Under the pieces are notes generated by a model. That model was not told the origin of the DNA. It worked only from the letters and a program-made list of their open reading frames with translations, and did not search any database. The translations under genes were made by a program, and so were the position numbers. This document shows, piece by piece, positions 22,882 to 25,283 of a DNA stretch of 25,283 nt; position 1 is the stretch's first letter; every line of letters begins with the position of its first letter. The DNA is from a virus. The DNA is taken from positions 1 through 25,283 of the IMG/VR virus record IMGVR_UViG_3300045999_011512. One strand, 5' to 3'.

Positions 22882-22936
22882 TATTTTTTCTTCCTTTTTT
22901 AAAAATAATTTAGTAAATTATATTTATGTCTATCGG

Positions 22937-23067
22937 CGTGGGTGCCTCTCCCGTTCTCTGAAGCGGTGATTTTAATTATGGCGTATTCGCCATGTTTAGC
23001 TACCACGTTTTCTTTCCCCGCCTGACGAGGTGTGTACTGAGACCCTAACTGACGAGTTAGGGTTTTT
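22937..23067 (+). ncRNA. Candidate structured RNA ending in a terminator
   Basis: Read as RNA, CGTGG (22937-22941) can pair with CCACG (23003-23007). This would close a junction with two inner hairpins: CCGTTC/GAA-CGG with a bulged G (22951-22966) and ATGGCG/CGCCAT with loop TATT (22978-22993). A third hairpin CGCCT/AGGTG with loop GACG (23019-23032) follows, and then the terminator whose loop is also GACG. It is visibly more GC-rich than the flanking DNA. It could be a small RNA or just a structured 3' end of the operon. The pairing was found by eye. Confidence 0.4.
23042..23067 (+). terminator. Rho-independent terminator of the plus-strand operon
   Basis: A perfect 9-bp stem ACCCTAACT/AGTTAGGGT with loop GACG is followed by a run of T ending near 23068. 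It is the first strong plus-strand terminator after the membrane genes, so it should end the long rightward unit or the candidate RNA before it. Confidence 0.88.
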
Positions 23068-23099
23068 TATTTTTATAATGCATCGTATAGTATACATAA

Positions 23100-23123
23100 C
23101 ATTTTGTTAACGTCAACAATATG
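23100..23123. repeat. Hairpin repeat, copy 1
   Basis: CAT, a T-T mismatch, then TTGTT/AACAA around the 6-base loop AACGTC, closed by ATG. It shares the loop and inner stem of copies 2 and 3; the outer stem is only 3 bp here. Confidence 0.6.
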
Positions 23124-23134
23124 ATACTTTAATT

Positions 23135-23162
23135 ATCGTTTTGTTAACGCCAACAACACGAT
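23135..23162. repeat. Hairpin repeat, copy 2
   Basis: The outer stem ATCGT/ACGAT, a single T-C mismatch, inner stem TTGTT/AACAA and loop AACGCC make 28 bases. The outer stem differs from copies 3 and 4 by paired changes that keep it base-paired. The trailing GGATTATTATT is similar to the sequence after copy 3. Confidence 0.68.
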
Positions 23163-23178
23163 GGATTATTATTTTTCC

Positions 23179-23206
23179 ATGTCCCCGAAGTTTATTTCGG
23201 GAACAT
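23179..23206. repeat. Unrelated hairpin with the same architecture
   Basis: ATGT/ACAT outer stem, a single C-A mismatch, inner stem CCCGAA/TTCGGG and a 6-base loop GTTTAT; also 28 bases. The sequence is different from the neighbouring repeats, but the layout (outer stem, one mismatch, inner stem, 6-base loop) is the same. Confidence 0.5.
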
Positions 23207-23239
23207 ATAGTAAGTCTATTATATAATGAACTTACCCAT

Positions 23240-23267
23240 ACCATATTGTTAACACCAACAAAATGGT
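23240..23267. repeat. Hairpin repeat, copy 3
   Basis: ACCAT/ATGGT outer stem, a single A-A mismatch, inner stem TTGTT/AACAA and loop AACACC; 28 bases. It is followed by TTATTATTTAT and then, at a 39-base period, by copy 4. Confidence 0.68.
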
Positions 23268-23278
23268 TTATTATTTAT

Positions 23279-23306
23279 ACCATTTTGCTGACGTCAAGAA
23301 AATGGT
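23279..23306. repeat. Hairpin repeat, copy 4 (diverged inner stem)
   Basis: ACCAT/ATGGT outer stem as in copy 3, here with a T-A pair in place of the mismatch. The inner stem has decayed (TTGCT against AAGAA), while the centre has become the palindrome TGACGTCA. The length is still 28 bases. Confidence 0.55.
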
Positions 23307-23502
23307 TTCTTATAGGTAAAAATTTTTTTCCCCGGAATTTTTTTTAACACCCCCTTTTTAGTTTACCCACCCCCTTAAAAGATTTTTATGTTATTTTATA
23401 CCCAATAAGGTATATTATTTATTTTATCCACCGGATTTATACCCGATTGGGGATAGCCCGTTAGGGCTAGGCGAACTCGACCGCTTCTTATAGGGAGAAA
23501 AA

Positions 23503-23628
23503 TTGACCCCGCAAGAAAAACGACCTAAAACCCGTCTCGGATGGGTACTACCCCCCCTTGTTTACAATAAATTATGTTACTATAAACTACGTTACTATAA
23601 ACTATGTTACTACCTATGGTGTACGTAG
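23503..23628 (+). CDS. Possible small TTG-start ORF across the 15-bp repeats
   Basis: A 41-codon ORF from TTG at 23503, with an AGGGAG ribosome-binding site 6 bases upstream and an in-frame stop just before that. The first 20 residues are basic and Pro/Leu-rich. The second half is made of the tandem 15-mers, giving a five-residue repeat of the type YKLCY/YKLRY. Between repeat copies there is one synonymous and one non-synonymous change, which does not decide whether it is coding. It could be a leader peptide, or an accident of the repeats. Confidence 0.3.
   Translation: MTPQEKRPKTRLGWVLPPLVYNKLCYYKLRYYKLCYYLWCT
23558..23586 (+). promoter_or_regulatory. Weak sigma70-like promoter candidate
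   Basis: TTGTTT (23558-23563), a 17-base spacer and TATAAA (23581-23586). The -10 box matches five of six consensus bases but the -35 only three. The -10 lies at the junction of the first two 15-mers, and ACTATAAA recurs at the next junction, so the repeats may modulate or duplicate a promoter for the small genes to the right. Confidence 0.28.
23567..23611. repeat. Three tandem 15-bp repeats (iteron-like)
   Basis: ATAAATTATGTTACT, ATAAACTACGTTACT and ATAAACTATGTTACT follow each other without gaps and differ at two positions. A perfect 8-bp hairpin TGTACGTA/TACGTACA with loop GTTA (23620-23639) and a DnaA-box sequence follow. The arrangement is like iterons in plasmid or phage origins. Confidence 0.75.
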
Positions 23629-23639
23629 TTATACGTACA
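23620..23639. repeat. Perfect inverted repeat with GTTA loop
   Basis: TGTACGTA and TACGTACA flank GTTA, an 8-bp perfect stem. The same loop GTTA closes the TAGCCC/GGGCTA hairpin at 23454-23469. It could form a cruciform or bind a dimeric protein next to the repeats and the DnaA-box sequence. Confidence 0.6.
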
Positions 23640-23645
23640 GGTTCA

Positions 23646-23654
23646 TGTGGATAA
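23646..23654 (-). promoter_or_regulatory. Exact DnaA-box sequence
   Basis: TGTGGATAA on the plus strand, the complement of the consensus DnaA box TTATCCACA. It lies 7 bases after the inverted repeat and 35 bases after the tandem 15-mers. A single 9-mer can occur by chance, so the support comes from the neighbourhood. Confidence 0.4.
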
Positions 23655-23716
23655 CTTTGTGGTCTATTTTTTATCGGTAAGGTATCACGTATTGATATTG
23701 TCCCTATATTTGTGTG

Positions 23717-23733
23717 TGAACGATACACGTTCA
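23717..23733. promoter_or_regulatory. Inverted repeat ahead of the small-gene array
   Basis: TGAACG and CGTTCA flank ATACA, 31 bases before the first ATG of the array. It may be an operator or a hairpin in the leader RNA. Confidence 0.3.
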
Positions 23734-23763
23734 TGATGTTTTACTTTCTCATAGGGTTGTGTC

Positions 23764-23946
23764 ATGATGCACACACAAGCAACAGCAACGGTAACGTGTG
23801 ACGGCGTTACAGAACGCGTAGCCATTGGCTACTTCCCAACGGATGCGGAATTAGTCCGCGAAATTGAAGAGCTACGCGCTACGCTACGCGCGGACTATGA
23901 CGACGCAGTGCGAGCGGAAGAACGGTACGTAATTGTACTGTGGTAA
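23764..23946 (+). CDS. Small unknown protein, first of the right-hand array
   Basis: A 60-residue protein starting with two Met codons; either could be used. A beta-like N-terminus (ATATVTCDGVTERVAIGYFP) precedes an acidic/basic helix (DAELVREIEELRATLRADYDDAVRAEERY), so it is a small two-part fold with a likely helical dimer. The codons are GC-rich (32 of 60 bases at 23821-23880), unlike the left part of the window. A strong stem-loop follows 14 bases after the stop. Not recognised; the location suggests an early host-takeover gene (inference). Confidence 0.62.
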   Translation: MMHTQATATVTCDGVTERVAIGYFPTDAELVREIEELRATLRADYDDAVRAEERYVIVLW

Positions 23947-23960
23947 CTTGGCGGTATCAA

Positions 23961-23993
23961 GGGGGTCTTGGTAGGCAAGACCCCCCAATTTTT
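23961..23993 (+). terminator. Stem-loop with T run after the 60-residue gene
   Basis: A 10-bp stem GGGGGTCTTG/CAAGACCCCC with loop GTAGG, then CAA and five T. It is a strong terminator-like structure only about 20 bases before the next gene's ATG, so it probably attenuates or processes rather than fully stops the transcript. Confidence 0.75.
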
Positions 23994-24004
23994 CAACCTA
24001 ACAC
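23989..24004 (+). repeat. Leader element, diverged copy A
   Basis: TTTTTCAACCTAACAC, a variant of the TTTTTAACCAACAC core found three more times directly after stem-loops downstream; here with two inserted bases and without the CGGAG ribosome-binding site. Confidence 0.5.
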
Positions 24005-24013
24005 AAAACAACA

Positions 24014-24379
24014 ATGATACAGAAAATTTCGGTAACCCTTGCGAACGGTGATACTGTGGAACACGTCACACGTTACGCGGATATTGGCAGTGCTACGCTC
24101 TACAAAACATTCCCTATGCTTTGCCGTAGCGCACACACTATTGTTGACCTTCAAGCTCAATACAATTCGGTGTGTCAAGATATTGAAAATCTTGCAAAGT
24201 ATATGGCAGCCAACGGCTATACTGGCGAAGTAGCGGAAACTTTGTACAACACACAATACGACACGTATATGGAACGTGTGCAGTTATCGGAGTCTCTATA
24301 TTACCAACTCTTGCAAGAACGGCTTTCCTACAATACCTTATGGGTTAGGTATCACAAAGAACTAGAAAAAGTCTTCTGA
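24014..24379 (+). CDS. Unknown 121-residue protein of the right-hand array
   Basis: Begins with a beta-like section (KISVTLANGDTVEHVTRYADIG), similar in style to the start of the preceding 60-residue protein (VTCDGVTERVAIGYF). A long helical region follows (about 35-120), rich in Tyr, Gln and Leu. The protein may be a longer relative of its neighbour: both have a short beta unit with a T/V-x-x-V pattern and then a helix. No named family. A strong stem-loop lies 17 bases after the stop. Confidence 0.65.
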   Translation: MIQKISVTLANGDTVEHVTRYADIGSATLYKTFPMLCRSAHTIVDLQAQYNSVCQDIENLAKYMAANGYTGEVAETLYNTQYDTYMERVQLSESLYYQLLQERLSYNTLWVRYHKELEKVF

Positions 24380-24396
24380 TTGACAACCGAGCAAAT

Positions 24397-24423
24397 GGGG
24401 GGATATTATCCCCCCCACTTTTT
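24397..24423 (+). terminator. Stem-loop with T run after the 121-residue gene
   Basis: An 8-bp stem GGGGGGAT/ATCCCCCC with loop ATT, followed by CAC and five T. The T run is also the first part of the shared leader element. Confidence 0.78.
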
Positions 24424-24447
24424 AACCAACACTTTCGGAGTTATGCA
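24419..24447 (+). repeat. Leader element, copy B
   Basis: TTTTTAACCAACACTTTCGG followed by AGTTATGCA, directly before the ATG at 24448. It contains a CGGAG ribosome-binding site. Its 29 bases differ from copy C at one position (C or T before the final A). Confidence 0.85.
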
Positions 24448-24549
24448 ATGACACTTGAACAGATGCGACGCTCTAACACTAGGGGTTACTTTCTACTTGG
24501 TGTTGCCTATGGTCTAATGGTCTCGGCATTCGGTTTACTGCTTCTCTAA
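24448..24549 (+). CDS. 33-residue membrane peptide
   Basis: A small ORF with a CGGAG site 8 bases before its ATG. The N-terminus is polar and basic (TLEQMRRSNTRG), and the last 19 residues are hydrophobic (ending GLLLL), so it should sit in the membrane as a single pass with its start in the cytoplasm. The layout matches the 31-residue peptide at 25011: an MT-EQ start, basic residues and then a hydrophobic tail. A stem-loop follows 8 bases after the stop. Confidence 0.55.
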   Translation: MTLEQMRRSNTRGYFLLGVAYGLMVSAFGLLLL

Positions 24550-24557
24550 CACCATCA

Positions 24558-24587
24558 GGGGAGGGGTTCCACTCCTCCCCACTTTTT
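24558..24587 (+). terminator. Stem-loop with T run after the 33-residue gene
   Basis: A 7-bp stem GGGGAGG/CCTCCCC with a 9-base loop, followed by AC and five T that begin the next leader element. Confidence 0.72.
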
Positions 24588-24611
24588 AACCAACACTTTC
24601 GGAGTTATGTA
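24583..24611 (+). repeat. Leader element, copy C
   Basis: TTTTTAACCAACACTTTCGG followed by AGTTATGTA, directly before the ATG at 24612. Almost identical to copy B. Confidence 0.85.
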
Positions 24612-24947
24612 ATGAACAATCTCCCATGGCTTGGAAACTATCAAGCCAACACAGCGACACCAGATGCAAAGAAAGCTCTGGCAAGGATTCACAACACACT
24701 TGACAGTGTCAAGGATTATACAGTGTTTGACTGGATGTCAAGCGATGTAGTTTCTCAATATGCTTATCGTTGGGATATCGTTGGATATTTGGGTAATCTC
24801 ATTGACAACTGCGGATTACACTATATCGCAGTCATCAATGACCACAACGGAGTTTCTTCGAATATGTTCCACAAGTCAGTGGACTTCTACTCAATCAATG
24901 ACATCATTGCTTTCTATGCCGGTGATTGCGAAGAACCGACATACTGA
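24612..24947 (+). CDS. Unknown 111-residue protein of the right-hand array
   Basis: A soluble protein rich in aromatic residues, Asp and Asn. The N-terminus (NNLPWLGNYQ) and a middle helix (TPDAKKALARIHNTLDSV) precede a stretch of mixed structure (YAYRWDIVGYLGNLIDNCGLHYIAVINDHNG). The acidic C-terminus ends EEPTY. It has the good ribosome-binding site of leader copy C. Not recognised. A stem-loop follows 7 bases after the stop. Confidence 0.65.
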   Translation: MNNLPWLGNYQANTATPDAKKALARIHNTLDSVKDYTVFDWMSSDVVSQYAYRWDIVGYLGNLIDNCGLHYIAVINDHNGVSSNMFHKSVDFYSINDIIAFYAGDCEEPTY

Positions 24948-24954
24948 TTATAAT

Positions 24955-24989
24955 GGGGGCCGAGTCAAGTGGTTCGGCTCCCTATTTTT
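24955..24989 (+). terminator. Stem-loop with T run after the 111-residue gene
   Basis: A 9-bp stem GGGGGCCGA/TTCGGCTCCC-type (one G-T pair) with a 10-base loop, then TA and five T that start the next leader. Confidence 0.72.
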
Positions 24990-25010
24990 AACCAACACTA
25001 CTTGGAGTCT
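24985..25010 (+). repeat. Leader element, copy D
   Basis: TTTTTAACCAACACTACTTG followed by GAGTCT, before the ATG at 25011. The first 14 bases are identical to copies B and C; the end has changed but keeps a GGAG ribosome-binding site. Confidence 0.75.
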
Positions 25011-25106
25011 ATGATGACACGCGAACAGAAGAAGAATGTAGCTAATAACTGTATTGCTGCTGCTTATCTCTTGATAATCATTGCAATCGATATGATGCTC
25101 CCGTAA
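25011..25106 (+). CDS. 31-residue membrane peptide
   Basis: A small ORF with two possible Met starts (25011 or 25014) and a GGAG site 4-9 bases upstream. A polar, basic start (TREQKKNVANN) is followed by a hydrophobic tail (about 14-31), predicting a single-pass membrane peptide. It is similar in layout to the 33-residue peptide at 24448, perhaps by duplication of a cassette. A strong terminator follows. Confidence 0.52.
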   Translation: MMTREQKKNVANNCIAAAYLLIIIAIDMMLP

Positions 25107-25120
25107 TCAATTAAATACAG

Positions 25121-25153
25121 CCCCGTGAGTTCACTGCTCACGGGGTTTTTTTT
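25121..25153 (+). terminator. Strong terminator closing the small-gene array
   Basis: A perfect 9-bp stem CCCCGTGAG/CTCACGGGG with a 7-base loop, followed by eight T. It is the strongest terminator in this part and probably ends the rightward transcript. No leader copy follows it, unlike the other stem-loops. Confidence 0.9.
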
Positions 25154-25194
25154 ATTCATTATTTAGTAGTCATTCGATTGTCATTGGTCCAAAT

Positions 25195-25283
25195 TCAACT
25201 TTTTTGCGCGTGATAGTGCCACTGCGTATTACATTTCACATGTTCCATTTCATACTGTTGCCAAACCCAAATGCCACACTCCC
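25195..25283 (-). CDS. Possible C-terminal end of a leftward gene (partial)
   Basis: On the minus strand an open frame enters from the right edge and ends with TGA at 25195-25197. The visible 28 residues are rich in Trp, His, Cys and Gln (for example WVWQQYEMEHVKC), which looks protein-like, and it would converge on the terminator at 25121-25153. An open plus-strand frame covers the same bases, so the call is weak. Confidence 0.28.
   Translation of the reverse strand, partial: ECGIWVWQQYEMEHVKCNTQWHYHAQKS

Follow-up and report, generated by a model that had tools for sequence, protein, structure and literature searches.

Four diverged palindromic repeats lie in an 880-base intergenic stretch (22882-23763) of IMGVR_UViG_3300045999_011512, a 25,283-base IMG/VR fragment of a T4-like myovirus (baseplate wedge, head maturation protease) that we analysed over its whole length and refer to as the window. 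An earlier note on this DNA had described the repeats as hairpins whose stems change in a compensating way. Comparison with viral and GTDB sequences places the four repeats, in degenerate form, in a widespread palindrome family, which is also found inside the coding sequence of dinD, a gene known since early SOS work. We tentatively interpret them as DNA sites of two-fold symmetry at which a dimeric DinD/Bro-N-type protein would bind, and which would serve as operators or decoys.

Features of the array and its surroundings, in window coordinates
Feature	Sequence	Position	Strand	Remarks
Palindrome copy 1	AACATTTTGTTAACGTCAACAATATGAT	23098..23125	+	11/14 pairs; sister counterpart L100:1330-1359(-)
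Palindrome copy 2	ATCGTTTTGTTAACGCCAACAACACGAT	23135..23162	+	left arm identical to sister copy 1
Palindrome copy 3	ACCATATTGTTAACACCAACAAAATGGT	23240..23267	+	
Palindrome copy 4	ACCATTTTGCTGACGTCAAGAAAATGGT	23279..23306	+	sister counterpart L100:1260-1289(-)
Hairpin	ATGTCCCCGAAGTTTATTTCGGGAACAT	23179..23206	.	sequence unrelated to repeat family
Second hairpin	GTAAGTCTATTATATAATGAACTTAC	23209..23236	.	sequence unrelated to repeat family
Conserved intergenic block carrying the array		23063..23574	.	sister G001 alignment, three pieces
Terminator-like hairpin, upstream of the array		23039..23066	+	terminator-like site scan
Perfect DnaA-box match	TTATCCACA	23646..23654	-	

The four hairpin repeats are real and cluster well beyond what chance would give. 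Counting 28-mers in which 11 or more of the 14 pairs are self-complementary yields 14 for the window and 0-5 for 200-bp block shuffles; five of the window's 14 start in 23098-23279. The core TTGTTAACRYCAACAA occurs eight times on both strands at up to three mismatches (mean 2.2 and maximum 6 in 100 shuffles), and all except one of these matches fall in the array. RNA folding of 23071-23330 gives z = -5.4 for the plus strand and -9.0 for the minus strand. The positions first assigned to copies 2, 3 and 4 hold, but copy 1 spans 28 bases rather than 24, and the hairpin of different sequence noticed between copies 2 and 3 is joined by a second one that had not been listed.

The compensating change in the outer stem was also confirmed. 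Copy 2 has ATCGT/ACGAT where copies 3 and 4 have ACCAT/ATGGT, so that two pairs differ on both sides; the outer stem of copy 1, AACAT/ATGAT, contains one A.A mismatch. Copy 4, which the earlier note singled out as having drifted, does carry two mismatches in its inner stem, but it is the copy nearest the family consensus, and it is copies 1-3 whose centre has drifted, with A.C mismatches. The copies are 64-76% identical over 42 nt and are spaced 37, 105 and 39 apart. They lack the near-identical repeats and regular spacers of a clustered regularly interspaced short palindromic repeats (CRISPR) array, and none of the four is among the terminator-like sites, in which a stem is followed by a T run. 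An Rfam scan of the window returned two tRNAs only, with nothing near threshold in the array region; this and a limited literature search agree with the initial impression that the repeats match no known element.

The family to which we assign the array has a consensus of about 30 bp, RAYCATTTT-NNN-GACGTC-N'N'N'-AAAATGRTY. A scan of IMG/VR with an 18-base core identified 58 contigs; in many of them the flanks, on which the pattern placed no constraint, are palindromic (for example ACCATTTTGTTAACGTCAACAAAATGGT). A second scan, which left three bases free on each side (pattern CATTTTNNNGACGTCNNNAAAATG), matched at least 80 loci, with 72 distinct sites among the matches listed and about 67 outside dinD frames. 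The free triplets are fully complementary in 38 of the 72 listed sites, where 1.1 would be expected at 1/64 each, and a further 23 match at two of three positions. The contigs bearing these free copies range from 31 to 65% in guanine-plus-cytosine (GC) content and come from unrelated phages; copies are single or arrayed, 1-4 per contig. In one contig (L396) three elements follow one another, their stems being GTT, CCT and GCC, as an independent array that resembles the one in the window. Moreover, the arms covary. Across 70 viral elements, including those of the window, the 12-pair stem is 92.7% paired and its covariation is 0.241 against 0.109 for shuffled elements (0/500), whereas stems slid along the same elements give 0.010-0.105. 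Most fixed columns are imposed by the search pattern, and the weight of the covariation rests on the free pairs 3/28, 10/21, 11/20 and 12/19.

The viral sites occur between tandem genes (28), convergent genes (9) and divergent genes (6), and inside long open reading frames (ORFs) of uncertain reality (20). At nine viral loci (L411:960-1085, L427:8894-9017, L399, L451, L465, L410, L415, L461 and L463) the palindrome lies within a conserved sequence of about 90 nt, ACCCC..GTTTGTGCATCATC..palindrome..GAGCTAAGCAT..GGGGT, with stem types GTT, CCT and CCC and without an Rfam match; this embedding sequence is possibly a small RNA or structured DNA. The records of Campylobacter phages A18a (MG065686.1, 50541-50570) and A11a (MG065691.1, 123553-123582) contain the exact E. 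coli-type dinD palindrome; these matches may be host-DNA contamination of the assemblies and were not used.

A model built without the window or sister-phage copies recovers copy 4 at an expectation value (E) of 7e-6 (41.5 bits), a copy from the sister phage at 8e-4 and copy 1 at 0.015; it is weak for copy 3 (E=0.5) and copy 2 (E=7). The window copies align ungapped over 30 columns with 62 viral sites. On these alignments we regard membership as clear for copies 4 and 1, and assign copies 2 and 3 by their apparent shared ancestry.

The same palindrome is embedded in dinD. A GTDB scan with a perfect 24-mer gave more than 116 stretches across many phyla, most of them in DinD reading frames, where the palindrome codes for D-H-F-V-D-V-N-K-M-V at one fixed place, about codons 63-73. 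We had at first read the conserved flanks of the IMG/VR sites as those of a recombinase core site; most of the GTDB matches then proved to be DinD-coding, which raised the concern that the palindrome was a pure coding coincidence. Because an exact scan cannot prove constraint, we also sampled dinD genes with a protein model alone, from 299 genomes of the Sedimenticola phylum and 296 of the Chryseobacterium phylum, which yielded 49 genes. A strong palindrome stands at the same codons in 48 of the 49—versions include GTTGACGTCAAC, CGTGACGTCACG, GCCGACGTCGGC, TCCCAAGTGGGG and GAGGATATCCTC—and is the best of its gene region in 48 of the 49. On average 13.04 of 15 positions pair, compared with 9.08 under a synonymous null that keeps the amino acids and draws random synonymous codons at each gene's own usage; 45 of the 49 genes reach P<0.05, although the genes are related and their P values are therefore not independent. 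The arms of a gene pair better with each other (12.86) than do arms taken from two different dinD genes (10.49). Pairs that join two second codon positions also show changes on both sides, one such pair occurring as all four Watson-Crick types, so the palindrome has been kept through amino-acid change. The protein-model sample and the synonymous null together reject pure coding coincidence: dinD keeps the palindrome at the nucleotide level.

Stem types GTT, CGT, GCC and CCT are common to dinD and the phages. In E. coli K-12 the dinD palindrome, GACCATTTCGAGGAGATCCTCGATATGGTC, has 13 of 15 pairs (next best, 9 of 15), and a match was present in 1884 E. coli genomes, as a single copy that lies in dinD wherever its location was examined, bar a few weak matches. 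Two loci combine inside and outside copies. In G034 (L317:4978-10267), four copies with an altered centre, GGCTTC/GAAGCC, alternate in orientation, one inside dinD and three outside; in G006, two outside copies flank dinD. The altered centre shared in G034 and the flanking position in G006 argue for a common reader of inside and outside sites. In the Chryseobacterium-phylum sample, many of the dinD matches are fragmentary or stop-bearing; rapid gain and decay of the gene is suggested.

How well are the stems kept in relatives of the window, the test that the earlier note had set itself? A search for close relatives through neighbouring proteins was unsuccessful, and alignment of the protein that we take to be a gp55-like sigma succeeded. 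The sister phage recovered in this way (G001/L015) is syntenic with the window, with proteins mostly about 40-80% identical. Its DNA matches the three pieces of the conserved intergenic block at 85%, 78% and 76% identity, and the longer neighbouring coding alignments at 66-74%. Two array copies are kept in this block, both with the exact core TTGTTAACGCCAACAA. Sister copy 1 combines a left arm matching window copy 2 with a right arm matching window copy 1, a mixture that suggests possible recombination among copies; the outcome is a G.T wobble where copy 2 pairs G with C and copy 1 pairs A with T. Sister copy 2 has one T.T mismatch. With one wobble and one mismatch, the stems of the sister phage are mostly but not perfectly kept.

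More distant relatives were compared as well. In fifteen loci (among them L022:3388, L027, L040, L045, L052, L059, L064 and L065) a single element occupies a homologous position close to the end of the same ORF, and its flanks hardly vary. The stem is GTT/AAC in most of them and has switched to GAG/CTC in L059 and L064. In the same two loci single-base length changes beside the element shift the reading frame, so the constraint lies on the nucleic acid and not on the protein. Covariation among these relatives is 0.223 against 0.108 shuffled, over only eight distinct sequences. The ORF close to whose end the element lies resembles a phosphodiester glycosidase.

We propose that a dimeric, host-encoded DinD/Bro-N-type protein would bind the sites as double-stranded DNA. 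The copy inside dinD would be the site through which the protein controls its own gene, and the phage array, lying between phage gene blocks, would act as clustered operators or as decoys that titrate the protein; the decoy role that had been among the original candidates is compatible with this. DinD corresponds to NCBIfam NF008573, Pfam Bro-N PF02498 and PADLOC candidate PDC-S13. In its structure model (mean predicted local distance difference test score, pLDDT, 88.8) the residues coded by the palindrome form the first strand of a β-hairpin (66-75/79-88). A sequence search gave no solved structures for DinD; the nearest to the model are those of Deinococcus radiodurans DdrC (Foldseek E 1.8e-5, moderate template-modelling scores), which makes a DNA-binding role for DinD plausible. 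DdrC is a DNA-damage-induced DNA-binding protein that occurs as monomer and dimer (PMC5436757), and E. coli DinD is reported to inhibit RecA filaments (cited in PMC10602874). A Bro-N gene was found in 0 of 40 site-bearing or related phage records, many of which are fragments, so the reader in phages would be host-encoded or of another family.

The choice of double-stranded DNA is a matter of ranking. Palindromy runs through to the centre in many dinD genes, which favours double-stranded DNA or a cruciform. Covarying arms are typical of hairpins; they are also expected if the reading protein changes specificity. The earlier note took paired change as a sign of selection on a folded form. Selection on pairing is upheld by the 70 viral elements, by the stem switch in the relatives and by the dinD null; as the selected form we put a dimer site in double-stranded DNA first and RNA second. 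A more far-reaching version is possible but rather unlikely: that dinD genes hold a palindrome recognised by their own product or a partner, that the arm code (GTT, CCT, GCC, CGT, GAG and others) diversifies in step, and that phages keep matching free copies, single or arrayed, as part of an interaction with this candidate defence protein.

Several observations weigh against the proposed reading. DdrC is reported to bind DNA without sequence specificity (PMC5436757); sequence-specific palindrome binding by DinD is what we infer. We sought a common neighbouring gene for the viral sites and found none. Copies outside dinD adjoin it at one of the 49 sampled loci, on which ground we rejected general autoregulation through flanking operators. 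The gene scores above the model cut-off in only about 6-12% of the sampled genomes (19/299 and 37/296), so most hosts may be without dinD. Finally, stem change with pairing kept fits structure at least as well as it fits a base-read operator.

This last point bears on the foremost alternative, an RNA element, which we consider unlikely. The palindrome would be a transcript hairpin—in dinD mRNA and in phage leaders, trailers or small RNAs—bound by protein or antisense to dinD mRNA, and stem sequence that changes while pairing is kept is what it would predict. The centre mismatches of the window and sister copies are all A.C on the plus strand and G.U on the minus strand, the strand that folds better, but they represent only about three independent events. 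On the dinD coding strand G.U is commoner than A.C (18 versus 6 over pairs 2-14), an excess partly forced by codons and shared ancestry. One viral copy (L127) lies between promoter-like sequence and a Shine-Dalgarno site, and the conserved embedding at the nine loci described above also speaks for RNA. However, palindromy reaches the central bases in many dinD genes, although a hairpin loop would not require this; the sites occur in any orientation and position, even between convergent genes; and Rfam has no match.

A recombination site, used for integration, inversion or resolution, is distinctly unlikely. The array copies have the layout of inverted arms around 6-8 bp, and the 11-bp arms and 6-bp centre of the family recall a tyrosine-recombinase core, as do the four G034 sites with their common altered centre and alternating orientation. 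Yet the centre is usually palindromic and so gives no direction, the arm sequence varies strongly, and sites are conserved inside dinD. Moreover, the dinD copy itself accounts for one of the G034 sites, and inspection of the ORFs by eye revealed no recombinase gene in L317 or in the window, both of them fragments.

We think it very unlikely that the array is an iteron-like part of a phage replication origin, in which spaced semi-palindromes are bound by an initiator. The long conserved intergenic block with its DnaA box invites this idea—the DnaA-box match lies within 18 bp (23640-23657) identical in the sister phage—and RepA-bound semi-palindromic iterons of about 30 bp are known from origins of phage-inducible chromosomal island-like elements (PLE; PMC8263062); no initiator was identified for the array. 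But DnaA-box matches are expected by chance in the window (mean 2.3), GC skew does not change at the array, phages mostly carry the site as one copy and in contexts that are unrelated, and dinD contains it too.

That no selection acts on the palindrome, and that arms are matched by template switching at quasi-palindromes, an established mutation type, or by copying between elements, as the mixed arms of sister copy 1 might suggest, is highly improbable: such events may explain the origin of paired changes but not their retention, and against them stand the palindromy at one dinD codon position across phyla, measured against the synonymous null, and the fact that unrelated phages repeatedly show the same stem types.

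Turning from the array to the rest of the window, Microcystis phage Mel-JY01 comes nearest among named phages (51% amino-acid identity in the baseplate protein), but its overlap with the window is confined to the structural block; the palindrome motif was looked for in Mel-JY01 and not found, and phage GenBank records gave no match to the window DNA. Over 22900-25283 the GC content climbs from about 30% to 43%, and terminator-like hairpins are interspersed with small ORFs that have no family matches. The sister phage shares this change, so the window is probably not a chimera. A TTCTTATAG-type motif, a candidate phage promoter or start region, occurs at 23305-23318, 23485-23500 and 23080-23092, with a conserved sister version TTCTTATAGGGAGAAAAA. 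The direct repeat TTTATACCC..GG(T/G)ATA at 23395-23414 and 23436-23455 is kept in the sister phage, and an exact 19-mer of it is present in seven further viral contigs. Three tandem 15-base repeats, TTACTATAAACTATG, lie at 23562-23612.

A phage-wide, dinD-borne palindrome family is apparently undescribed. In the literature searched, which did not cover subscription journals, neither a mention of a dinD palindrome nor an occurrence of the core 12-mers was found. A palindrome that overrides codon choice in a gene of many phyla, and that unrelated phages also carry, suggests a so far undescribed system of host-phage recognition in DNA (or RNA). It offers a testable handle on the role of dinD, through what binds the palindrome and why phages carry it, and the consensus lets others find further members in sequence data.

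How does the family compare with known systems? Like repetitive extragenic palindromic and bacterial interspersed mosaic elements (REP/BIME) and the Rickettsia palindromic elements, it consists of short palindromes that recur between and within genes; unlike them, its dinD copy stands at one conserved place and is not an insertion, and its phage copies number 1-4 per contig without a linked transposase. PLE origin iterons, bound by RepA (PMC8263062), are also semi-palindromic repeats of about 30 bp in a short array, whereas the family sites are spread singly through unrelated genomes without an identified initiator. Tyrosine-recombinase core sites of the dif/lox type share the length of about 28 bp and the inverted 11-bp arms around 6 bp, but the family differs in its palindromic centre, its covarying arms and its location in dinD, and no linked recombinase was recognised. 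In dinD itself the context differs—the phage copies lie outside coding sequence or in another frame, and Bro-N is in none of the 40 phage records—but its coding sequence holds the same palindrome of about 30 bp, with the same stem types as the phage sites.
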